From: Catenulispora sp. MAP5-51
Lineage (GTDB): Bacteria; Actinomycetota; Actinomycetes; Streptomycetales; Catenulisporaceae
Length of the DNA stretch: 64,000 nucleotides
Direction: 5' to 3'
Assembly: GCF_041261205.1 (NCBI RefSeq)
Contig: NZ_JBGCCH010000004.1
Coordinates: 434,001-498,000, forward strand
Position numbers and translations under genes: made by a program
Shown here: one piece after another, positions 36,684 to 50,907 of the stretch
How positions within the stretch are numbered: position 1 is the first letter of the stretch
How the letters are laid out: each line of letters opens with the position of its first letter
Notes under the pieces: model-generated
Databases searched by the model: none
Seen by the model: only the letters and a program-made list of their open reading frames with translations
What the model was told of the DNA's origin: nothing

Positions 36684-37727
36684 ATGCGTTCTGTCACCCG
36701 CAAGCTCGCCATCACCTCGGCGATCGCCGCGGCCGCCCTGGGCGCCGTGGTGGCGTCGAACGGCGCCGCGCTGGCCGACCCGCCGTCGGGCACCACCCCG
36801 GCCGCCACCGACATCGTGGCCGCCGGCTCGGACACCATCCAGGCGCTGGACAACGGCGTGTCGGCTGCCTACAACGCCACCAGCCCGGCCTCGAAGTTCT
36901 ACAGCTGGGACGCCACCCCGGCCGGCAACATCACGCCGAAGTCCGGCGCGAGCACGATCGCCCGGCCGAACGGTTCCGGCTCCGGCATCACCGCGCTGAA
37001 CAGCACCACCCACACGACGCTGGACATCGCCCGCTCCTCGCGCGGCCCGAACTCCGGCACCACCGACTGGTTCATCCCCTTCGCGACGGACGCGGTCGGC
37101 TGGTCCGCCTACACCGGCGGCAACGCCCCGCACGACCTGAGCAGCTCCGACCTGCAGGGCATCTACAACTGCACCATCACCAACTGGAACCAGATCACCG
37201 ACGAGGGCACCCTGCCGAACGCCCCCATCGACGTGTTCATCCCGCAGTCCGGCTCCGGCACGCGGTCCTTCTGGCTGGGCGCGCTGGGCATCACGACCAC
37301 CCCGTCGTGCTGGAAGGCCACCACGCCGGAGGAGAACGAGGGCACCGACGCGGCCTTCGCCGGCGACGTCAACGCGATCTTCCCCTACTCCCTGAGCCAC
37401 TACGTCGGCCAGGTCTACGACGGCAAGGGCACCACCACGGACGCCCCCGGGGTCCTGGACGCCAACCGCTCGATCGACGGCACCGAGCAGCTCGACACCG
37501 TCAACAAGGTGTGGAACTCGAACCTGTCGCTGACCTACACCCGCAACGTCTACCACGTCGTGCGCCAGGCCGACTGGGCCGACGCCACCGAGGGCCCGCG
37601 TCTGAAGGCCCTGCTGGGCCGCTCCGTGAACAACGGCTGGCTGTGCAAGAACGGCGCCAGCCTGATCACCAGCTACGGCTTCCAGACCCTGGGCAACGCC
37701 TGCGGCACGCTCCAGGCCGGCATCTGA
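36684..37727 (+). CDS. Secreted PstS-like substrate-binding protein (soluble)
   Basis: 347 residues from ATG 36684 with a perfect AGGAGG ribosome binding site. A Sec signal peptide (KLAITSAIAAAALGAVVASNGAALA) ends near residue 32, with no lipobox, so the protein is released or cell-wall bound. The mature protein is a type II periplasmic-binding fold of the PstS kind: AGSDTIQAL at the start of the first lobe, LDIARSSRG, DLQGIYNCTITNWNQI and VFIPQSGSGTRSFWLGALG, which matches the phosphate-contacting SGSGT loop. A C-terminal pair of cysteines may form a disulfide. Phosphate or a related oxyanion is the expected ligand, but this is inferred. It heads a Pst-type cluster but is separated from the permease genes by two genes. 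Confidence 0.78.
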   Translation: MRSVTRKLAITSAIAAAALGAVVASNGAALADPPSGTTPAATDIVAAGSDTIQALDNGVSAAYNATSPASKFYSWDATPAGNITPKSGASTIARPNGSGSGITALNSTTHTTLDIARSSRGPNSGTTDWFIPFATDAVGWSAYTGGNAPHDLSSSDLQGIYNCTITNWNQITDEGTLPNAPIDVFIPQSGSGTRSFWLGALGITTTPSCWKATTPEENEGTDAAFAGDVNAIFPYSLSHYVGQVYDGKGTTTDAPGVLDANRSIDGTEQLDTVNKVWNSNLSLTYTRNVYHVVRQADWADATEGPRLKALLGRSVNNGWLCKNGASLITSYGFQTLGNACGTLQAGI

Positions 37728-37774
37728 CGATCCCCGGGATCACAGTCCCCTGATTTACCAGAAGTGCACAACGG

Positions 37775-37818
37775 CCGGGCCCGACGCCAGGCGTCCACGG
37801 ACGTTCCGGCGGGCCCGG
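37775..37818 (+). terminator. Hairpin after the secreted PstS-like gene
   Basis: CCGGGCCCG (37775-37783) pairs with CGGGCCCGG (37810-37818), with two further C-G pairs after a bulge. It starts 47 bases after the stop. No U-tract; TCCTTCC follows. Confidence 0.5.
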
Positions 37819-37865
37819 TCCTTCCCCGTTGTCCGTCCCGCAGTACCGCCTCTCAAGGAGTCCCC

Positions 37866-38450
37866 ATGAACCGCACCGTCGTGCGCTCGCTGGCCGCCGC
37901 CGCGGCGATCGCCGCGACCGCCGTCGCGCTCCCGTCCGCCAGCGCGACCGGCACCCCGGCTTCCGGGAGCGTCGCCGTGACCGCTTCGAACACCTTCCTG
38001 ACCGCCGCGCTGCAGTCCGGCATCGCCGCGGTGCCGCTGCCGACGGCGACCGGGTCCTACGACCGCACCACCGGTGCCACCGCGACCTTCCCCGTCACCG
38101 GCGGCAACGCCGTCCTGGCGCGCTTCTACGGCACCGTCACGCTCGGCGGCGGGATCGCGTTCGCGGACGCGCTGACCGGCAAGATCGTCTGCTTCCACCA
38201 GGTGACCCTGTCCGGCAGCACCCAGGAGATCTCCGCGGTGCCCGACGGCGGCACCACGCCGGTGAACCTGTTCGCCTTCGGCGACGACACCGTGGGCAGC
38301 GCCACCGGTGCCACGCCGCAGACGCTGACCGGCGAGGCCGACATCCCCGCCGACGGTGCCGCGTACCTGAACCAGGCTCTGCACACCGCGTTCTTCACCG
38401 CCGGTCAGGCCGTCGGCTCGCTGAGCGCCAGCTACACCCCGGCCAGCTGA
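37866..38450 (+). CDS. Small secreted beta-rich protein, function unknown
   Basis: 194 residues from ATG 37866 with AAGGAG upstream. A Sec signal peptide runs to about residue 32 (AAAAAIAATAVALPSASATG). The mature part is beta-rich and low in charge; segments such as FYGTVTLGGGIAFAD and LNQALHTAFFTAGQAVGSLSASY vaguely recall HtaA-type surface domains, but the match is too weak to name. There is no membrane anchor. Position between two PstS-like genes suggests a cell-surface role with them. The 371 bases that follow contain a degenerate repeat array. Confidence 0.55.
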   Translation: MNRTVVRSLAAAAAIAATAVALPSASATGTPASGSVAVTASNTFLTAALQSGIAAVPLPTATGSYDRTTGATATFPVTGGNAVLARFYGTVTLGGGIAFADALTGKIVCFHQVTLSGSTQEISAVPDGGTTPVNLFAFGDDTVGSATGATPQTLTGEADIPADGAAYLNQALHTAFFTAGQAVGSLSASYTPAS

Positions 38451-38821: not shown

Positions 38822-41434
38822 ATGTCGCCCCATGAAGCGGGAGCCGCCCGCCGGCGCAGAGGTCTGCGCGTCTACTGCGCGGCCGTACTCGCCTGGACGG
38901 TGAGTTTCATGACGGCCCTGGTCCTGCTGCCTCCGGGTGCGCACACCATCGCCACCGCGCACGCCGATGCCTCATCGGTCACCGTCGCGGGTCCGCCGGT
39001 CTGGATTCCGGCGACGCAGACCACCGGCGCCAAGGGCTCGGTGACTGTCTCCCAGACCGAGAACCTCGTCGACCAGATGGTCCACGTGTCCTGGACCGGG
39101 TTCACGCCGAGCACCCACGGCTCGTTCGTGGTGTTCGGGAACTCCAACGGCGGCAACTGGAACGCGGTCGGATACCCGGTCGTCGTCTACGAGTGCCGAG
39201 GCACCGACCCGAAGATCACCGACTGCTACGGCGGGTTCCACTACGGACAGGACCCCACGGCCGGATTCCAGCTCCCGTCCGAGTCCGCGGGCCTGCAGGC
39301 GCCGGACTTCCCGTCGAACGTGGTCGCGGCGGTGACCCGCGGCGACGGCACGGGCAGCGCGGACATCGAGATGTACACCGCGAGCCAGTCGCCGACCATG
39401 GGCTGCGACGCCACCCACCAGTGCTCGATCGTCGTCGAGCCCAACTACGGCGGCGACGCGCTGGGCTTCAGCACGGAGGACGGGTCGGCGGACTGCACCT
39501 ACCACGACGGCGACACGGGCCTGAGCGGCGCGGCCACCGGAGCGGAGTACGAGACCGTCGGCGCGTCCGGGTTCGAGGACGGCGAGCAGTGCGCGTGGAA
39601 CCAGCGCACGGTCGTCCCGGTCTCCTTCGCGCCGGTCCCCGCGGCGTGCCCGGCGAGCGCGACCGACGTCGCCGCCGAGGGCATGCCGATGCTCGACCGC
39701 GCCCTGACCCAGTGGGTCGTCGGCTCGTGCCTGGCCGGCGTCGACCCGGTCACCGTCCAGTACAGCAGCGACCTCACCGAGCCCGAGGCGCGTGCCGACT
39801 TCCTGCAGGGCAGGGCCGGAGCCGACGTGGCGTTCACGTCGCTGCCGGCGAGTCCCACGGCGGCCAGCGCGCGTCCCTACACCTACGTACCCCTGGGCAA
39901 CACCGGCATCGCGATCGCCTTCTTCGTCGACGATCCCAAGACCCACCTGCCGATCACGAGCATGAAGCTCAACGCCCGGCTGGTGGCCAAGCTGCTGACC
40001 CAGTCCTACGACTACGAGAACTTCGTCGGTGCCAAGAGCGACACCGCTTCGGTCGCGGGGAACCCGGGCTGCCTGTTCAAAGACCCCGAGTTCATCGCGC
40101 TGAACCCGACGAACAACGCCTTCACCTGGCCGACCTGCGCCGCCCAGGACGGCTCCGAGCCGATCGTCGCCGGCGGCCAGAGCGACCTGGTCCGCGAGCT
40201 GACGACGTGGATCATGTCCGACCCCGACGCCAGCGCGTTCCTGAGCGGGAAGCCCGACCAGTGGGGCATGCACGTCGACAGCTTCTACAAGACGTCCGTG
40301 TACCCGTACCCGATCGACAGCTTCGTGGCCCAGGACGCCAGCGGCCCGCCGGTGGACCCGGGCACCGGGCTCCCGTATGACCCGCAGGGCACGCACCGGG
40401 ACTACAACCGCCTCAAGGGATTCGAGTGGAACCCGATCCAGGCCGGGCTCGACGCCGTAGCGCGGAGCCTGGTCCTGCAGACGCCGACGTGCATCCTGCA
40501 GAACTACGAGGCGCCGGCCGGGCACGCCAAGTGCGGACCGCAGAACCTCGGCAGCCGCAGCCTGATCGCGATCATGGACAGCGGCCGCGCGGCCGCGTTC
40601 AGCTTCCCGACCGCGGCGCTGGCCAATGGCACGGGCGCCTACGTGACCCCGACCGCCCCCGGCATGGCCTCCGCGGCGCTGGACTACGTGACCGATCCCA
40701 AGACCGGCACCCAGTCGCTGCCCTGGGGCGTCGGCCACACCGGGTACGCCGGTGACACCGCCGCCTATCCGTTGACCGTCCCGAACTACGCGATGGCCCC
40801 GACGTCGGGGGTCTCGGCCGCCAAGGCCACCGACATCGCGGAGTTCCTGACCGCGGTCACCGACAGCCGCAGCGGCCAACTCCCCGGCAACCAGCCCGGG
40901 CAGCTCGCCCCCGGCTACGTCGGCGTCACTCCCGCGCAGGCTCAGCAGGCCGGCGCCGCGATCGCCAAGATCCGTGCCGGGGCCGCCCCGGGCGGCGCGC
41001 CCACCACCGTCACCGCCACCGGTCCGGTCACCGGCCAGCCGGCCACCTCCGGCAACGTCGTGGTCACCCCGGTCACCACCACGAAGAACGGCACCGCGTC
41101 GGTCTCCTACATCACCAGCACCATCGGGTCCGGGGACGCCGGGGCGAACGGCGGCACCGGCTCCGGCGGTTCCGGCTCGTCGTCGAAGGGCGCTGCCGGT
41201 CCCGCCGGCAGCGGCGGCCCCACCCACAGCCTCAGCGGCTCCACCGCCGCGGCCGCCCTGGGCAGCGTCAGCGCCGACACGGCGGGCTTCGGCCGGCTGA
41301 TCCTGCCGATCCTGCTCATCGTCGGCCTGGTGCTGGTCGCCGCCGGTCCCGCCGCCCTGCTGCTGACCACCGGCGCCGCCGGGGCGAAGCTGCGGTCCCT
41401 GTGGCCGAACTCCGCGCGCCGGTTCGGGCGGTGA
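38822..41434 (+). CDS. Large membrane-anchored surface protein with PBP-like domain
   Basis: 870 residues from ATG 38822; GGAGG lies eight bases upstream, inside the palindrome GGAGGTCCTCC. An N-terminal hydrophobic segment (about 18-40) is a signal peptide or anchor. Residues about 50-260 are beta-rich with several Cys pairs; about 270-690 resemble a PstS-type binding fold (MLDRALTQWVVGS, GADVAFTSLPASP, YVPLGNTGIAIAFFVDDP) but no SGSGT ligand loop is visible. A Thr/Gly/Ser stalk (about 720-810) leads to a transmembrane helix (about 825-848) and a basic cytoplasmic tail. No LPxTG or LAxTG motif is present. It is followed four bases later by pstC, so it is probably part of the transporter. It could be a receptor, a degenerate binding protein or an adhesin. 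Confidence 0.65.
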   Translation: MSPHEAGAARRRRGLRVYCAAVLAWTVSFMTALVLLPPGAHTIATAHADASSVTVAGPPVWIPATQTTGAKGSVTVSQTENLVDQMVHVSWTGFTPSTHGSFVVFGNSNGGNWNAVGYPVVVYECRGTDPKITDCYGGFHYGQDPTAGFQLPSESAGLQAPDFPSNVVAAVTRGDGTGSADIEMYTASQSPTMGCDATHQCSIVVEPNYGGDALGFSTEDGSADCTYHDGDTGLSGAATGAEYETVGASGFEDGEQCAWNQRTVVPVSFAPVPAACPASATDVAAEGMPMLDRALTQWVVGSCLAGVDPVTVQYSSDLTEPEARADFLQGRAGADVAFTSLPASPTAASARPYTYVPLGNTGIAIAFFVDDPKTHLPITSMKLNARLVAKLLTQSYDYENFVGAKSDTASVAGNPGCLFKDPEFIALNPTNNAFTWPTCAAQDGSEPIVAGGQSDLVRELTTWIMSDPDASAFLSGKPDQWGMHVDSFYKTSVYPYPIDSFVAQDASGPPVDPGTGLPYDPQGTHRDYNRLKGFEWNPIQAGLDAVARSLVLQTPTCILQNYEAPAGHAKCGPQNLGSRSLIAIMDSGRAAAFSFPTAALANGTGAYVTPTAPGMASAALDYVTDPKTGTQSLPWGVGHTGYAGDTAAYPLTVPNYAMAPTSGVSAAKATDIAEFLTAVTDSRSGQLPGNQPGQLAPGYVGVTPAQAQQAGAAIAKIRAGAAPGGAPTTVTATGPVTGQPATSGNVVVTPVTTTKNGTASVSYITSTIGSGDAGANGGTGSGGSGSSSKGAAGPAGSGGPTHSLSGSTAAAALGSVSADTAGFGRLILPILLIVGLVLVAAGPAALLLTTGAAGAKLRSLWPNSARRFGR

Positions 41435-41438
41435 GCGC

Positions 41439-42521
41439 ATGAGCACCGCGGACGCCGGCGCCGCGCTGGCCGACGACCTGTTCGGGCCGCCGCCGGGGGG
41501 CTCCGGATCCAGTTCCGGTTACGGCTCCGGCTCCGGCCCCACGGCGGGGCCCGCCGACGAGGACCGCCCGATCCGCATCATCCCCGGGGTGTCGCGCGGC
41601 GACCGCGTCTTCCGGATCGTGTTCCGCGCCGCCGGGCTGTCGGTGTTCGCGATCATGGGGCTGATCGCGCTGTTCCTCCTCACGCGTGGGACGCAGGCGC
41701 TGCACGCCACCGGGTGGTCGTTCCTGACCGAGCAGCGGTGGCAGACGGCCACCCACCGGTTCGGCGTCGGCGCGGTGCTGCCGGACGGGATCATCATCGC
41801 GGTCATCGCGCTGCTGATCGCGGTGCCGGTGGCGCTGTCCGCGGCCGTGTTCATCGCCGAGTACGCGCCCGCAGGGCTCCGCCGGACGCTGGTCTCGCTG
41901 GTCGACCTGATGGCGGCCGTGCCCAGCATCGTCTACGGACTGTGGGGGCTGATCTTCCTCACGCCCCGGGTCATCGGCTTCGAGCGGTGGCTGTCCACGC
42001 ATCTCGGCGGGGTGCTCCCGTTCCTGAGGGTGCGCAACGGCGAGATCGCCGCCTCGTACGCGCAGTCCGCGTTCATCGCCGGCGTCGTGGTGTCGCTGAT
42101 GGTGATCCCGATCATCTGCTCGCTGTCCCGCGAGGTGTTCTCGCAGGCCCCGGCCGGGGAGCGGGAAGGCGCGTACGCGCTGGGCGCCACGCGCTGGGGG
42201 ATGGTGCGGACCGTCGTGCTGCCGTTCGGCAAGGGCGGGGTGATCGGCGCGGTGATGCTCGGCTTCGGCCGGGCGATGGGCGAGACCATCGCGGTGGCGC
42301 TGATCATCTCGCCGGTGTTCGCGGTCACCTCGCATCCGCTGCAGGCCGGCGGCAACTCCATCTCCTCGCTGATCGCGCTGCGCTATGGCGAGTCCGACAA
42401 GCTCGCGCTGTCGGCCCTGATGGCCGCCGGGCTCGTGCTGTTCACGATCACGCTGCTGGTCAACATGGCCGCGGCGGCGATCATCTCCCGTTCGCGCTCC
42501 GGCGCCGCGACCAATGAGTGA
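41439..42521 (+). CDS. pstC: Pst-type ABC transporter permease PstC
   Basis: 360 residues, ATG 41439. A Gly/Ser/Pro-rich cytoplasmic head of about 45 residues precedes six helices. The permease signature is complete: LMAAVPSIVYGLWGLIFL and the EAA-type loop EREGAYALGATRWGMVRTVVLPFGKGGVIGAVMLGFGRAMGET, which docks the ATPase. It forms the membrane channel with PstA. The gene is four bases after the surface-protein gene and overlaps the pstA frame by up to eight bases, so one transcript is likely. Confidence 0.92.
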   Translation: MSTADAGAALADDLFGPPPGGSGSSSGYGSGSGPTAGPADEDRPIRIIPGVSRGDRVFRIVFRAAGLSVFAIMGLIALFLLTRGTQALHATGWSFLTEQRWQTATHRFGVGAVLPDGIIIAVIALLIAVPVALSAAVFIAEYAPAGLRRTLVSLVDLMAAVPSIVYGLWGLIFLTPRVIGFERWLSTHLGGVLPFLRVRNGEIAASYAQSAFIAGVVVSLMVIPIICSLSREVFSQAPAGEREGAYALGATRWGMVRTVVLPFGKGGVIGAVMLGFGRAMGETIAVALIISPVFAVTSHPLQAGGNSISSLIALRYGESDKLALSALMAAGLVLFTITLLVNMAAAAIISRSRSGAATNE

Positions 42522-42537
42522 GGGGTCTGAGGGCGCC

Positions 42538-43886
42538 ATGACGACTGTCGAATCCGCCGTGCCCGCCGCCGCTGCGGCTGCCGCCGCTCCTGGCACTGCT
42601 GCTGCTCCCGCTGCTGCTGCCATCGCCGCTCCCGGCGCCGCCGCCGCCGACCGGCCCGCCCCGGTCGGCGACGGCCCCGGCGCGGCCTACGTCGACGCCG
42701 GCAGCGGGCAGGTGCGGGTGCGCCCCGGCGCGCTCACCGCCGCCGACTACGCGACCCTGGCGGGCGCGGCCGTCGGCGCGGTCGGACTGGTCTGGCTGGT
42801 GTACGAGCGCCTCATGCCGTGGTCCGGCGCGCTGGGCTTCTGGCTGTGCTGGTACGCGGTCTACCTGGTCATGTACTGGGGCATCGCGCGCTGTCAGTGG
42901 GAGGCCCGGCACGTCCGCGAGAAGCTCGCCACGGCCCTGTTCACCGGGGCCGGGATCTTCATCCTGGTGGTGCTCGTCGACCAGGTCGCCTACGTGGCCT
43001 GGCGGGGCGAGAAGGTCATCGTCCACGGCAACTTCCTGACCTCCGACATGCAGAGCACCGGCCCGCTGGACCCGTTGACCTCCGGCGGCTGTCTGCACGC
43101 GATCGTCGGCTCGCTGGAACAGCTGGGTCTGGCGACGCTGTTCGCGGTGCCGCTGGGCATCTCCGCCGCGGTGTTCATGTCCGAGGTCGGCGGCCGGCTG
43201 GCGCGGCCGGTGCGGACCGTGGTCGAGGCGATGACGGCGCTGCCGTCGATCGTCGCGGGCCTGTTCATCCTCGGCTCGGTGATCCTGACCCTGGGCTACG
43301 ACCGCAGCGGGTTCGCCGCGTCGCTGGCGCTGACCGTGATGATGATGCCGATCGTCACCCGGGCCTCGGAGGTGGTGATCCGCGTCGTGCCGAACACCTT
43401 GCGCGAGGCCTCCTACGCGCTCGGCGCGAGCCAGTGGCGCACGGTGTGGAACGTGGTCCTGCCGACCGCGCGCTCCGGCCTGACCACCGCGATCCTGCTC
43501 GGCATGGCCCGGGCGGTCGGGGAGACCTCGCCGGTCCTGCTCACCGCCGGGTTCACCTCCGGGATGAACGCCAACGCCTTCAGCGGCCAGCAGGTCAGTC
43601 TGCCGCTCTACGTCTGGAACTACGTCCGCTATCCCCAAGAGGACATGAAGATCCGCGCGTTCGGCGCCGCGCTGACGCTGATGGCGATCGTCATGATCCT
43701 GTTCGTTGCTGCGCGCGTGGCCGGCGGCCGCCGGCCGGGCGAGCTGTCGCGCCGCCGCCAGCGGCAGATGGCCCGCGACCGGGTCCGGGCCGCCGCGAAC
43801 CCCGCCGCCTCCCACGCCCCGCGCGTGCATCCCGCACCGATATCCACCGCCGCGGCTGTGGTCCACCCGAATCCGGAGCCTGTCTC

Positions 43887-43890
<4 letters not shown>
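42538..43890 (+). CDS. pstA: Pst-type ABC transporter permease PstA
   Basis: 450 residues from ATG 42538, which has GAGGG five bases upstream. An in-frame ATG at 42514, overlapping the pstC stop, would add eight residues but lacks a ribosome binding site. The head is a run of Ala/Pro. Six or more helices follow; the core EAMTALPSIVAGLFILGS and the loop REASYALGASQWRTVWNVVLPTARSGLTTAILLGMARAVGETSPVLLTAG are diagnostic of PstA. A Pro/His-rich tail of about 50 residues ends the protein. The length is well above the usual 280-300 residues because of the head, two extra helices near the start and the tail. GTGA overlap with the next gene. Confidence 0.9.
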
Positions 43891-45712
<1,822 letters not shown>

Positions 45713-45716
<4 letters not shown>

Positions 45717-46876
45717 GCGCGCCGACGGCGGACACTGCGGCGGCTACTGCGGCTACTGCGGCTACTGCGGCAACCGGGGCGACCGAGGCGACCGGGGCGA
45801 CCGAGGTGGCTGGGGGAGCCGGGGCTACCGGGGCGACCGCGCCAGTTGCGGCGCCGGATCCGGAGACCGGGGCACTGGCCGAGGCACTGGTCGGGGCGAC
45901 GGCTGGGGCACCAGGCAATGCGCCGACCGCGCCGGAGCCGGGCACCGCGGTTCCGCAGCCTGCTGCGAAGGCGTCCTCGGCCGGAGCATCTCAGGCAGCG
46001 CAAGCGTTCGAGGCATCACAAGCAGCGCGGGCGGCCGCATTCCGCGCCGCACAGCGTGAGGGCCGGGGCCTGCGGACCGTGCGGATGGTCGGCATGGCCG
46101 CGAGCCTGACCGCCGCGCTCCTGCTGGGCTGGGCCGTTTACGCGTTCGGCTTTTCCAGGCTTCAGGAGCAGCACAGCCAGGCCGACCTCTACCGCACGCT
46201 GGCCGGTGAGCTCGGGCAGGCCACGGCGCCGGTCGGACCGGCCGCCGACGGTGCGCCGGTGGCCATCATGGACATCCCGGCGATCGGGCTGCACCAGACG
46301 GTCGTGGTGGAGGGGACCACCGGGTCCGATCTGGCGCGCGGCCCCGGGCATCTCCGCTACACGGTGCTGCCCGGACAGCCCGGTGTCAGTACTCTGCTGG
46401 GCCGCCGGGGGACCTTCGGCGCGCCGTTCGCGGAGCTGCCCCGGCTGCGCCTCGGCGACAAGATCAGCTTCACCACCGGCCAGGGCACCTTCACCTACAC
46501 GGTGAACGCGTTCGGCCAGGGCTCGAAGCCGGTCATGGACTCCTTCCCGAACCGGCTGGTGCTGGCCACCGGCGACTCGACCTGGATCCCGACCCGCGTG
46601 ATCTATGTCGGCGCCCGCCTGGACGGCGCGCCCACCGATGCCTCCGGACAACGCGGAACCAAGACCGATCTGGACAAGCCGCTGTCCTCCGACACCGACG
46701 CCTGGCCCGCGCTCCAGCTGTGGGCGCTCGCGCTGGCCCTGGCGGTGGCCGCGACGGTCGTGCTGGCCGTGGCGGGGAACCGGCGCGCCGTCTACCTCTC
46801 GACGGCGCCGGTGCTGGCCGCGCTGCTGTGGTGCGTGTACGAGAACGCCACCGTCCTGCTGCCTAACCTCTACTGA
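45713..46876 (+). CDS. Sortase-fold membrane protein lacking catalytic His and Cys (pseudo-sortase)
   Basis: 387 residues from GTG 45713. Residues 1-118 are Ala/Thr/Gly-rich and include 9-bp DNA repeats. A transmembrane helix (about 124-144) leads to a sortase domain (about 180-305) of class E type: [15 protein letters not shown], then [24 protein letters not shown], then [22 protein letters not shown]. In active enzymes the first block reads AGHR and the second TTC. Here the catalytic His is R231 (codon CGC, 46403-46405) and the catalytic Cys is G287 (codon GGC, 46571-46573); the conserved Arg remains as R295. Two more helices follow (about 337-354 and 360-378). It therefore cannot be a transpeptidase by the known mechanism. 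Context between PstS and PstB suggests a structural or sensory role in the transporter. Confidence 0.75.
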
Positions 46877-46889
46877 ACCTGGGACCACG

Positions 46890-47816
46890 ATGACCGAGAT
46901 AGACGAGTACGGCGGGGTGGCGACGGCCTCGGCCGCGGACGCCCCGACCCAGCAGCTGCCGACCGTTCCCGCCGACCCCGGCGCAAGCGCGGGCGCGGGC
47001 GGTATCGGCGGTCCCGGCACGGCCGCCGGCCGCTCGGGCCGCCTGGTCGGCCTGCAGACCCTGGACCTGTCCGCCTGGTTCGGCGACCACAAGGTGCTGG
47101 AACGCGTGTCGCTGACCATGGCGCCCGGCGAGGTGACGGCGCTGATCGGCCCGTCCGGCTGCGGCAAGTCGACGTATCTGCGGATCCTGAACCGCATGCA
47201 CGAGATGGTGAAGTCGGCGCAGCTGGCCGGCCAGGTCCTGCTGGACGGCGACGACATCTACGCGCCCGGCCGCCGCCCGGCCGACGTCCGGGCCCGCGTC
47301 GGCATGGTGTTCCAGCGCCCGAACCCGTTCCCGGCCATGTCCATCTACGACAACGTCGTCAGCGGCCTGAAGCTGGCCGGCATCAAGGCCGCCAAGGGCC
47401 GCCGCGACGAACTGGTGGAGACCAGCCTGACCCAGGCCGGCCTGTGGGCCGAGGTCCGCAACCGGCTGCGCGCCCCCGGCGGCGCCCTGTCCGGCGGCCA
47501 GCAGCAGCGGCTGTGCATCGCTCGCTCGCTGGCCGTGGAACCGGACGTGCTGCTGATGGACGAGCCCTGCTCCGCCCTGGACCCGACATCCACCCGCCGC
47601 GTCGAGGAGACCATCGCCGACCTGCGCGGCCGCCTGACGATCGTCATCGTCACGCACAACATGCAGCAGGCCGCCCGGGTGTCGCAGAACTGCGCGTTCT
47701 TCCTGGCCACCCACGACACCCCCGGCCGGATCGTGGAGGCCGGGCCGACCCGGCAGCTCTTCGAGGACCCGCAGGACGAGCGGACCTCGGACTACGTGAA
47801 CGGGCGCTTCGGGTAG
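46890..47816 (+). CDS. pstB: Phosphate ABC transporter ATP-binding protein PstB
   Basis: 308 residues from ATG 46890, 13 bases after the pseudo-sortase stop. A 50-residue Gly/Ala-rich head precedes a complete ABC ATPase: Walker A GPSGCGKS at residues 87-94, Q-loop VFQRPNPFP, signature LSGGQQQR, Walker [13 protein letters not shown] and H-loop [11 protein letters not shown]. The FQRPNPFP and SALDPTST patterns are specific to PstB. It drives the PstC/PstA channel by ATP hydrolysis. No phoU gene lies in the cluster. It is convergent with glsA, 19 bases apart. Confidence 0.93.
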
Positions 47817-47835: not shown

Positions 47836-48786
47836 CTAGAACACCGACCACCCCGTCGCCGCGCTGAACCGGTCCAAGGCCTCCACCCCCGCCACCGAGT
47901 TCCCATGCTGGTCCAGCGCCGGCGACCACACGCACAGCGCCGCGCGCCCCGGCACGACCGCCACGATCCCGCCGCCGACCCCGCTCTTGCCGGGCAGCCC
48001 GACGCGGAACGCGAAGTCGCCCGCGGCGTCGTACGCTCCGCACGTCATCATCAGGGCATTGACGCGCTTGGCGCCGAGCACCGGCAGCAGCCGGGTGCCG
48101 TTGGTGCGGACTCCGTGGCGGGCCAGGAACAGCGCGGCCATCGCGGTCTCGGCACAGCTCATCGCGATCGAGCAATGGCGGAAGTAGTGCTCGGCGGTGA
48201 CGTCGACGGGGTTCTCGATGTTGCCGTAGGCGGCCATGAAGTGCGCCAGCGCCAGGTTCAGGTCGCCGTGCTCGGCCTCGGAGGCGGCCACGGCGCCGTC
48301 GATGGTGACGGTGTGGTCGTCGGACTCGGTGCGCAGGAAGTCCAGGACCGTGCCTGCCGCGTCGCCGGTCTGGCTCTGCAGGATGTCGGTGACGACCAGG
48401 GCGCCGGCGTTGATGAAGGGGTTGCGCGGGATGCCGCGCTCGTACTCCAGCTGGATCAGGGAGTTGAAGGCGTTGCCGGAGGGCTCGACGCCGACCCGGC
48501 CGCGCAGCGCCCCGGCGTCGCCGGCCATCACCAGCGCCAGGGTGAACACCTTGGAGATGCTCTGCAGCGAGAAGCGCTCGCGGAAGTCGCCCACTCCGTA
48601 GAGGTGGCCGTCGACCGTGGCCAGGGCCATCCCGAAGCGGTCCGGGGGTACTTGGGCCAGCGCCGGGATGTAGTCCGCGACGCGTCCCTGGCCGACGTAG
48701 GGCGCCACCTCGTCGGCGATCCACTCCAGCAGCGCGTCGTAGGCGATGTCGTCCACCGAGACCGCCGCGCCTTCCTCATTCGCCAT
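47836..48786 (-). CDS. glsA: Glutaminase (GlsA family)
   Basis: 316 residues. The second ATG, at 48786, is chosen because GAAGG is six bases upstream; ATG 48792 abuts it. The enzyme hydrolyses glutamine to glutamate and ammonia. It has the serine beta-lactamase-like fold with the S-x-x-K catalytic pair S76-I-S-K79 (RFSLQSISKVF). Other family signatures are VEPSGNAFNSLIQLE, RNPFINAGALV, and the closing LPGKSGVGGGIVAVVPG. The length is normal and all key residues are present. It stands alone. Confidence 0.92.
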   Translation of the reverse strand: MANEEGAAVSVDDIAYDALLEWIADEVAPYVGQGRVADYIPALAQVPPDRFGMALATVDGHLYGVGDFRERFSLQSISKVFTLALVMAGDAGALRGRVGVEPSGNAFNSLIQLEYERGIPRNPFINAGALVVTDILQSQTGDAAGTVLDFLRTESDDHTVTIDGAVAASEAEHGDLNLALAHFMAAYGNIENPVDVTAEHYFRHCSIAMSCAETAMAALFLARHGVRTNGTRLLPVLGAKRVNALMMTCGAYDAAGDFAFRVGLPGKSGVGGGIVAVVPGRAALCVWSPALDQHGNSVAGVEALDRFSAATGWSVF

Positions 48787-48922
48787 GCGCATCCTTCATG
48801 AATCGGGTCGTGCCCCGGCCGGGCACGGGACACCATCCCATCCCGAGTGAGAAGGATCACGCCACCGGTGCTCTCCCTCGTTCCCCTACGAAAGTCGGAC
48901 GTGCGCCGATCCGCAGCCGACC

Positions 48923-48934: not shown

Positions 48935-50251
48935 GTGAAATCCCCGGCCTGGCTCCCGCGTGCCCGTGACATCGCGGTGATGTCGCTGGCCCTGCTGGAG
49001 GGGCTCGCGGACCTGTTCACGGACGCCTTCGAGCACCACGACCTGCCGATGGCGGTCCTGCAGACCTCGCTGGCGCTGGCCGGGACGGTGGCCCTGTGGT
49101 GGCGCCGGACGCACACCGAGCGCGTGACCGTGCTGTGCATGCCGCTGGCCGCGCTCGGCCAGGTGCAGGTCCCGCTGGCGATGATGCTGTTCGCGCTGGC
49201 GGTGAAGCGCCGCGACCGGGTGATGTGGACGCTGACCGCGTTCGCGGGCGGCGCGTTCCTGGCCCAGACCGCCATCGAGAAGCACGGCGACCTGACCTTC
49301 GGCGACGTGTTGGTGACCGTGCTGTGGGTGCTGGTCCTGGTCCTGTTCGGTGCCTACTTCGGTGCCCGGCACGACCGCCTGGTCGCTCTGCAGGAACGCG
49401 CCGAGCGGGCCGAGGCCGAGCAGGAGGCCCGGGCCGAGGCCGCGCGGATGGCCGAGCGCACCCGCATCGCGCGCGAGATGCACGACGTGCTGGCGCACCG
49501 GATATCGCTGATCGCGCTGCACGCCGGCGGCCTGGAGATCACCGAGCGCCCCGACCCGGACGCCGCGCGCCAGACCGCGGGCCTGATCCGGGAGACCGCG
49601 CGCTCGGCCCTGGAGGACCTGCGCGACGTGCTCGGCGTGCTGGCCAGCAGCGACACCTCGGCCCCGCTGGCGCCGCAGCCGCGCTTCGCGGACATCGCCG
49701 AGCTGGTCGAGCGCTCGGCCGCGGCCGGCGTCTCGGTACGCCTGGTGCCGAACAGCAGCCTGGGCCTGGACGCCCCGGTGCCCGAGGCCGTGGGCCGCGC
49801 CGCCTACCGGGTGGTGCAGGAGGCGCTGACCAACATCCACAAGCACGCCGCCTCGGCCGCGACCACGGTCCGGCTGTCCGGGGCCCCGGACATCGGCCTG
49901 GAGGTGCGCGTGGAGAACCAGGCGCCGCGGGCGGTGGGCACCTCGCTGCCCGGCGCGGGCTCGGGCCTGGCGGGCCTGCGCGAGCGCGTCGAGGTGGCCG
50001 GCGGCTCCTTCGAGGCCGGCCCGACGCTGCGCGGCGGCTTCCTGGTCCTGGCCTGGCTGCCGTGGCCGCAGACCGACGCCAAGGACGCCGCCGAGTACGG
50101 CGTGATCATGTCCCGCACCGGCTCCGGACGGAAGGCGGACGCCGGCGACTCGGCCCAGACCGCGTGCGTGGCCGATGATGGGAAGGACCGCACCGGATCC
50201 GCCGGTCCGGCCGACCGCCGCCTGATCCCCTTCCCGGAGCCCGCTGCATGA
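48935..50251 (+). CDS. Two-component sensor histidine kinase (NarL/DesK type)
   Basis: 438 residues from GTG 48935. The N-terminal 150 residues have about four or five hydrophobic segments with almost no extracellular loops, so the signal is probably sensed in the membrane. A short coiled coil leads to the dimerisation helix RTRIAREMHDVLAHRISLIALHAG with phospho-accepting H183. The ATPase domain follows: VVQEALTNIHKHA (N box) and GSGLAGLRERVEVAGGSFEAGP (G box). A disordered tail of 60 residues ends the protein. The response-regulator gene overlaps its stop by four bases. The signal is unknown. Confidence 0.9.
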   Translation: MKSPAWLPRARDIAVMSLALLEGLADLFTDAFEHHDLPMAVLQTSLALAGTVALWWRRTHTERVTVLCMPLAALGQVQVPLAMMLFALAVKRRDRVMWTLTAFAGGAFLAQTAIEKHGDLTFGDVLVTVLWVLVLVLFGAYFGARHDRLVALQERAERAEAEQEARAEAARMAERTRIAREMHDVLAHRISLIALHAGGLEITERPDPDAARQTAGLIRETARSALEDLRDVLGVLASSDTSAPLAPQPRFADIAELVERSAAAGVSVRLVPNSSLGLDAPVPEAVGRAAYRVVQEALTNIHKHAASAATTVRLSGAPDIGLEVRVENQAPRAVGTSLPGAGSGLAGLRERVEVAGGSFEAGPTLRGGFLVLAWLPWPQTDAKDAAEYGVIMSRTGSGRKADAGDSAQTACVADDGKDRTGSAGPADRRLIPFPEPAA

Positions 50252-50907
50252 TCCGCATCCTGCTCGTCGACGACGAGAGCCTGGTCCGCGCGGGCCTGCG
50301 CACCATCCTGGAGTCCGCCGAGGACCTGCGGGTGGTGGCCGAGGCCGAGGACGGCTCGCAGGTGGTCGACGCACTCGCCGCGCACCGTCCCGACGTGGTC
50401 CTGATGGACGTCCGCATGCCCCGCGTGGACGGCCTGGAGGCGCTGCGCCGGGTGCAGGCCACCCCCGACCCGCCGCCGGTGGTCATGCTCACCACCTTCG
50501 ACCTGGACGCGTACATCTTCGAGGCGCTGCGCCTGGGCGCCACCGGCTTCCTGCTCAAGGACACCCCGCCGCGCGACCTGATCTCGGCGATGCGCGTGGT
50601 GGCCCGGGGCGACGCGATGCTCTCCCCGCCGGTGACCAAGCGCCTGCTGGACCACTACACCGGCCTGCGGGTGGCCGACCGCGCCGAGCAGGCCGCGAAG
50701 CTGCTGGCCGAGCTGACGCCGCGGGAGCGCGACGTGCTGGCCGAGGTGGCGCGGGGCCTGTCGAACGCGCAGATCGGGCGCAGCCTGTACCTGAGCGAGG
50801 CGACGGTGAAGGCGCACGTCTCGCGGGTGATGGCCAAGCTCGGGGTGGCCAACCGGGTACAGGCGGCCTTGGTGGGACGCGACGCCGGGCTGCTCGACGA
50901 GTCCTGA
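50248..50907 (+). CDS. NarL-family response regulator
   Basis: 219 residues; ATG 50248 overlaps the kinase stop. The receiver domain (1-120) has the acidic pocket D8/D9, phospho-acceptor D54 (LMDVRMP), a Thr in LTTFD and K104 region FLLKDTP. The C-terminal LuxR-type helix-turn-helix is ELTPRERDVLAEVARGLSNAQIGRSLYLSEATVKAHVSRVMAKLGVANRVQAAL. It is the partner of the kinase above. The targets are unknown; the Pst-like cluster lies upstream but nothing in the sequence ties them. Confidence 0.93.
   Translation: MIRILLVDDESLVRAGLRTILESAEDLRVVAEAEDGSQVVDALAAHRPDVVLMDVRMPRVDGLEALRRVQATPDPPPVVMLTTFDLDAYIFEALRLGATGFLLKDTPPRDLISAMRVVARGDAMLSPPVTKRLLDHYTGLRVADRAEQAAKLLAELTPRERDVLAEVARGLSNAQIGRSLYLSEATVKAHVSRVMAKLGVANRVQAALVGRDAGLLDES

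Follow-up and report, generated by a model that had tools for sequence, protein, structure and literature searches.

A sortase homologue without catalytic residues in a Pst-type transporter locus of Catenulispora and other actinobacteria

The locus

The window, as we call the whole 64,000-nucleotide stretch of Catenulispora sp. MAP5-51 DNA that was analysed, contains a cluster of forward-strand genes in the order secreted binding protein, small secreted protein, SBP870, PstC, PstA, PstS, pseudo-sortase and PstB:

36687..37727, forward strand: secreted PBP_like_2 protein without a C-terminal hydrophobic segment; relatives in other such loci
37764..38450, forward strand: secreted protein without a Pfam match; relatives in the corresponding position of Catenulispora and Kitasatospora loci
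38822..41434, forward strand: SBP870, a degenerate PstS paralogue with a C-terminal hydrophobic segment; phosphate motif lost
41439..42521, forward strand: PstC-type permease
42514..43890, forward strand: PstA-type permease
43887..45716, forward strand: PstS-type binding protein with the RSDGSG motif kept and a long Gly/Ser-rich linker
45713..46876, forward strand: pseudo-sortase gene, 387 amino acids, GTG start
46890..47816, forward strand: PstB-type ATPase, 340.2 bits in TIGR00972, just below the cut-off of 343.2

Homologues of PstC, PstA and PstB stand together in one cluster, which is the combination that we took to mark an importer. The PstC, PstA, PstB and PstS families are those of the PstSCAB importer and the RSDGSG motif of PstS is shared with it. 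Unlike PstSCAB, the window cluster adds further binding proteins, a C-terminally anchored PstS with a long linker, a degenerate PstS paralogue and the pseudo-sortase. The GTG start of the pseudo-sortase gene overlaps the stop of the upstream pstS (43887-45716), and 13 bases separate its end from the ATG of pstB (46890). The open reading frame coordinates hence bear out the gene placement given in the first-pass annotation, an overlap with pstS followed by 13 bases to pstB.

The window PstS ends in a hydrophobic segment and a basic tail, and no lipobox was seen in it by eye. Inspected in the same way, 25 of 25 relatives, like the window protein, have a hydrophobic segment and basic residues near the C-terminus, and these ends lie 146 to 250 residues beyond the matched domain. 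The score of the window PstS in TIGR00975, 164.1 bits against a cut-off of 205, speaks against full membership of the Pst phosphate importers. Across 26 PstS rows, one of which is the ordinary PstS of the genome, the residues that we take to be phosphate-binding occur as follows: Arg188 in 25, Ser192 and Gly193 in 26 each, and, in the ASD motif, Asp91 in 20 (Glu replaces it in 5 and Ser in 1). From this motif and the Pst families we infer that phosphate is the putative substrate of the importer. A PHO-box scan of the window gave 8 matches against 5.0 expected, with as many in 15 of 100 shuffles and none in the operon; a count so near expectation carries no regulatory claim.

A glutaminase-like gene (47836-48792, reverse strand) and a histidine kinase/response regulator pair (48935-50907, forward strand) lie beside the cluster. 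Both are also found near the cluster in six other Catenulispora loci and are unmatched in the Kitasatospora loci. In several loci of a second type, WxLIP-domain and Ig-like surface proteins are encoded between SBP870 and the pseudo-sortase or nearby (WxLIP peptidoglycan-binding or Ig-like relatives at L053:10461-13354, L097:2521-3871, L098:14024-15440 and L099:6556-7347), and their position beside an importer recalls the WxL clusters of Firmicutes. In one genome a surface protein directly upstream of the pseudo-sortase (L061:9740-11128) ends in LASTG, a hydrophobic stretch and basic residues, which resembles a sorting signal.

The pseudo-sortase protein

The protein begins with a low-complexity part (residues about 1-120), which is rich in Ala, Thr and Gly (window 45713-46070) and much shorter in the Kitasatospora locus L044. 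Hydrophobic segments at residues 125-147 and 331-357 flank a sortase domain at about 170-305, and a weaker hydrophobic stretch runs on to the C-terminal LLPNLY. The LLP end is conserved and the C-terminal part is predicted to be membrane-embedded. The Pfam model Sortase (PF04203) is matched with 52.7 bits, above its gathering cut-off of 26.6, over profile positions 1-83 of 125, so that the part holding the catalytic Cys and Arg is left unmatched. The best sequence match is to the NCBIfam class E sortase model NF033747, at 74 bits and thus short of the cut-off of 160. Profile searches of Pfam and NCBIfam found no signalling domain. Genes from two genomes of the same genus group (L015 and L017) are identical over the domain to genes of C. 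rubra and C. pinistramenti (L043 and L041).

Catalytic residues

Four places in the gene bear on activity:

46403..46405, forward strand: codon CGC of Arg231, at the place of the catalytic His; among 37 Pst-linked homologues 36 Arg and 1 Lys
46505..46552, forward strand: shortened loop before the Cys strand, 16 residues
46571..46573, forward strand: codon GGC of Gly287, where active sortases have the catalytic Cys; the 37 hold Gly in 19, Ala in 12, Ser in 4 and Thr in 2
46598..46600, forward strand: codon of Val296, which occupies the column of the catalytic Arg; a single Pst-linked homologue out of 37 (L103) keeps Arg there

The alignment consists of 37 homologues from Pst loci and 20 other sortases. 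For the comparison set 17 loci were tried and 12 rows obtained, L004-L008, which are other sortase genes of the window's genome, being dropped. His, Cys and Arg are each present in 20/20 comparison rows, and 0/37 homologues in Pst loci keep His or Cys, the opposite of the outcome that would have refuted the first-pass annotation. Its two central readings, catalytic His changed to Arg231 and catalytic Cys to Gly287, both stand in the alignment, and the codons CGC and GGC do lie one base from active codons as it had said. The "conserved Arg" that it regarded as kept is off by one position: Arg295, replaced by His in L012, a relative of 98% identity, and by other residues in further rows, is outside the catalytic column, and Val296 is in it, so that all three catalytic residues are gone from the window protein. 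The first-pass annotation had also asked whether Arg and Gly are themselves conserved at the two sites: the first holds a basic residue in 37/37, and the second holds Gly in 19/37 (and Cys never), a pattern far beyond chance. At no other domain position do the 37 agree to 92% or more while the comparison set has a wholly different residue; at Arg231 that residue is His in 20/20. Ahead of the Cys strand, the loop measures 16 residues (median) in the 37 pseudo-sortases versus 29 in the 20 catalytically intact sortases.

The first branch of the linked group, L103 (genome G060), has Arg at the His place and Ser at the Cys place and keeps the catalytic Arg. This suggests that the catalytic Arg may have gone last in the Pst-linked group. 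Apart from the two pseudo-sortases, the eight other sortase-family genes of the window's genome keep His and Cys (8/8), and their Arg column holds 3 Arg and 5 Asn; the five with Asn are L004-L008, according to a quick alignment. Because these keep His and Cys, a missing Arg alone is no mark of inactivity.

A search of the phylum matched 201 of 396 genomes, most of them presumably with ordinary sortases. Inspection of His and Cys covered L108, L113, the second copy in the window's genome and those 30 matches for which loci were collected. The search also gave second matches above 105 bits in three genomes (G149, G241 and G161), and weaker ones. When 13 further loci from this search were aligned, His, Cys and Arg were kept in 12, the exception being L089. 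The sortase homologue of L089 and L147:8873-10237 (G304:C238) has Phe at the His place and Thr at the Cys place, keeps the Arg and sits among housekeeping-looking genes with no pst matches in 19 kb. It is possibly an independent second inactivation.

Fold

The domain was modelled with AF2 from 13 sequences, including one sortase with His and Cys, at a mean pLDDT of 69.8 and a pTM of 0.71. The full-length model (mean pLDDT 42.1) was too poor, and structure searches used the domain model only. Its best Foldseek match is 5go6 (E 5.2e-9). The overlay on class E sortases, which the first-pass annotation had proposed as a check, gave by VIA-align a Z of 15.4 to 5go5 with an rmsd of 2.1 over 122 residues, so that the sortase beta-barrel fold is kept in the predicted structure. 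The nearest known proteins, SrtE of S. avermitilis (5go5, Z 15.4) and SrtE1 of S. coelicolor (5cuw, Z 14.6), share this fold; unlike them, the pseudo-sortase has lost His, Cys and Arg, has a shortened loop and is encoded in a Pst locus. Residues 232-237 and 289-294, beside the lost catalytic positions, are of low confidence in the domain model, and hence no conclusion is drawn on the orientation of Arg231.

Descent and distribution

In 37/37 loci the pst genes adjoin the pseudo-sortase or lie near it, although contig ends leave only part of the cluster in some loci (L045, L048 and L058, for instance, show PstB alone). No pst cluster was seen near the 20 comparison sortases, within stretches of 5-19 kb for 8 of them and flanks of at most 1.5 kb for 12; L104 and L105 gave a distant ABC-ATPase match only, 28% to PstB. 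Several intact sortases of deep actinobacterial lineages share the hydrophobic C-terminal end (LLP in L104, L107-L110 and L112, YLP in L105, ALP in L113). They differ from the pseudo-sortases in that His, Cys and Arg are kept and no pst cluster is present in the stretches fetched.

A maximum-likelihood tree places the 37 on one side of one branch with support of 99/93 and in 96% of 200 bootstrap trees. The tree was built without the three catalytic columns; its bootstrap was not yet fully converged, several of its rows sit on long branches, and L111, cut short at 129 residues, was left out. Close relatives are over-represented among the 37 rows, which therefore do not stand for 37 independent events, and the tree needs one change. 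The rows span Catenulispora, another genus of its family, Kitasatospora and some Streptomyces. One more family of the same order is represented, as are two other families of the class and, deeper in the phylum, four families. Over 8 codon comparisons dN/dS ranged between 0.06 and 0.41, and 9 genes use CGC or CGG for Arg231. By these comparisons the pseudo-sortase is evidently under purifying selection. As the loss of His and Cys is shared by 37/37 Pst-locus relatives, it is old and no error. A search of a plasmid collection for relatives gave no match at E 1e-12, and in a viral collection 15 stretches matched a pattern with a relative encoded in none.

The window's genome offers a control, with three Pst loci. 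Two of them, one on contig C3 and the other, that of the window, on contig C4, have both the pseudo-sortase and SBP870. The third is an ordinary pst operon, in which a PstS with a lipoprotein-like N-terminus (LTAC) is followed by PstC, PstA and PstB, and neither pseudo-sortase nor SBP870 was matched there in 16 kb. The sortase gene L004, which is not among the 12 comparison rows, lies about 6 kb from this ordinary operon.

The companion protein SBP870

Profile comparison identifies SBP870 as a PstS paralogue (probability 98.8), and Pfam gave no match. At the aligned phosphate motif (14 rows) the Arg is kept in 1/14 and the Ser in 9/14, and the Gly has become Asp in 13/14. The C-terminus is hydrophobic in Catenulispora and most Kitasatospora loci, and in some second-type loci (for example, L053 and L059) a membrane anchor is unclear. 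The protein is widespread, and we met no description of it.

Its distribution follows that of the pseudo-sortase. In the phylum draw of 396 genomes the SBP870 profile was found in 12, including 10/10 of those in which a Pst-linked pseudo-sortase was found, with two of the ten matches weak (G060, E 1e-17; G415, 3e-13). Among 60 near genomes the pseudo-sortase occurs in 15, SBP870 in 15 and both in 14. G007, a 77% complete assembly, has a pseudo-sortase without an SBP870 match; G433, G281 and G015 weakly match the profile but gave no pseudo-sortase at the thresholds applied. In L102 pseudo-sortase and SBP870 are found together, on the opposite strand from the pst genes. Given this constant co-occurrence, the likeliest partner of the pseudo-sortase would shift from PstS towards SBP870. 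The co-occurrence itself would fit docking, assembly and sensing alike.

Discussion

The dead sortase within a Pst-type operon that the first-pass annotation had proposed is well supported, because none of the Pst-locus homologues keeps His or Cys, and pst genes lie near each of these inactive relatives. The three roles that it offered, a scaffold, a peptide-binding sensor or a clamp for the tethered binding protein, are candidates. To judge from sequence and gene neighbourhood, many actinobacteria have long retained the pseudo-sortase as a constant component of an elaborated phosphate-type uptake system. Recent inactivation with ongoing decay, or sequencing error, was considered since each change in the window is one base from an active codon, and has a negligible probability given a loss common to 37/37, synonymous changes at Arg231 and a dN/dS of 0.06-0.41.

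What, then, would the protein do? It cannot act through the known sortase mechanism. Fold, membrane segments and the near-invariant Arg are nevertheless kept and its companions are anchored, from which we infer docking or clamping: the pseudo-sortase now probably holds or organises binding proteins instead of cutting. We would give about even chances to its being a non-catalytic subunit that docks or clamps wall-spanning, membrane-anchored binding proteins beside the PstCA permease. It would bring SBP870 foremost, and the tail-anchored PstS as well, to the permease, with the old sorting-signal groove or the transmembrane segments recognising the C-terminal anchors non-covalently. The binding proteins would have no covalent link to peptidoglycan, and, once anchored, would hand phosphate, or a related oxyanion, across the wall to the transporter. 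That the pseudo-sortase and the degenerate PstS paralogue were recruited as a stable pair forming a non-covalent, wall-spanning docking module is a further reading that we hold at a little under an even chance.

Some observations sit less easily with docking. In active sortases the loop before the Cys strand forms part of the substrate groove. With the loop shortened and that part of the groove removed, sorting signals may not be bound at the former peptide site. The tails of the window PstS and SBP870 showed no LPXTG-like motif, which leaves a likeness of these tails to the ancestral substrate unsupported. The near-invariance of Arg231 speaks for a specific contact rather than a general scaffold, and so counts against docking.

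This residue leads to the alternative of a sensor or ligand-binding subunit, in which the barrel and the near-invariant Arg would bind a ligand and report it to the transporter. The ligand could be a peptidoglycan stem peptide, a phosphate-bearing glycopolymer or an oxyanion, in the wall or lipid-linked. The catalytic His has been replaced outright, by a basic residue in 37/37, and the WxLIP-domain and Ig-like surface proteins of some related loci suggest a wall-facing system. However, the reading has no known ligand to offer, no signalling domain was found in the pseudo-sortase by the profile searches, and the cytoplasmic N-terminal part consists of low-complexity sequence in the window protein and is short in that of Kitasatospora L044; we regard a sensor as possible but rather doubtful. 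More doubtful still is an assembly factor, a membrane chaperone that would assist the insertion, folding or stability of the binding proteins with C-terminal anchors and stand outside the working transporter. The close co-occurrence with SBP870, the membrane-embedded C-terminal part and the conserved LLP end are consistent with such a role, but a position between pstS and pstB calls for no chaperone, and we know of no chaperone of sortase fold. A transpeptidase of changed mechanism could draw on the kept fold and on Ser in four rows and Thr in two at the Cys position. With Gly or Ala at the nucleophile in 31/37, the catalytic Arg lost in 36/37 and the loop shortened, it is very improbable.

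The docking subunit that we propose has a partial counterpart in the Isd-type haem relay of Gram-positives, in which one cluster combines an ABC importer with surface binding proteins and a sortase gene, and the sortase is active and anchors the proteins covalently. Unlike that relay, the window cluster lacks the catalytic residues and its binding proteins have membrane tails. No pseudo-sortase of this kind was described in the literature searched on inactive and class E sortases and on sortases with PstS or WxL, which includes the excerpted text of PMC5148588. In the excerpted text of a study of Actinoplanes, five of five sortase candidates are named as class E or F sortases and a pseudo-sortase goes unmentioned (PMC13251363). 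Known folds and a known transporter type are here in a combination that was not met in the literature searched.

Interest in sortases has centred on their enzymatic activity and their use as drug targets, and family models assign proteins such as this one to them. A widespread non-catalytic group tied to one transporter type means that sortase annotations can be wrong. The near-invariant Arg231 and the constant partner SBP870 offer testable handles on its function. If true, the docking module would give a sortase pseudoenzyme a defined role, of a kind not met in the literature searched, and the sortase fold would have a second, binding-only use. It would also provide Gram-positive bacteria with an alternative route by which nutrients pass through a thick wall to an ABC importer.
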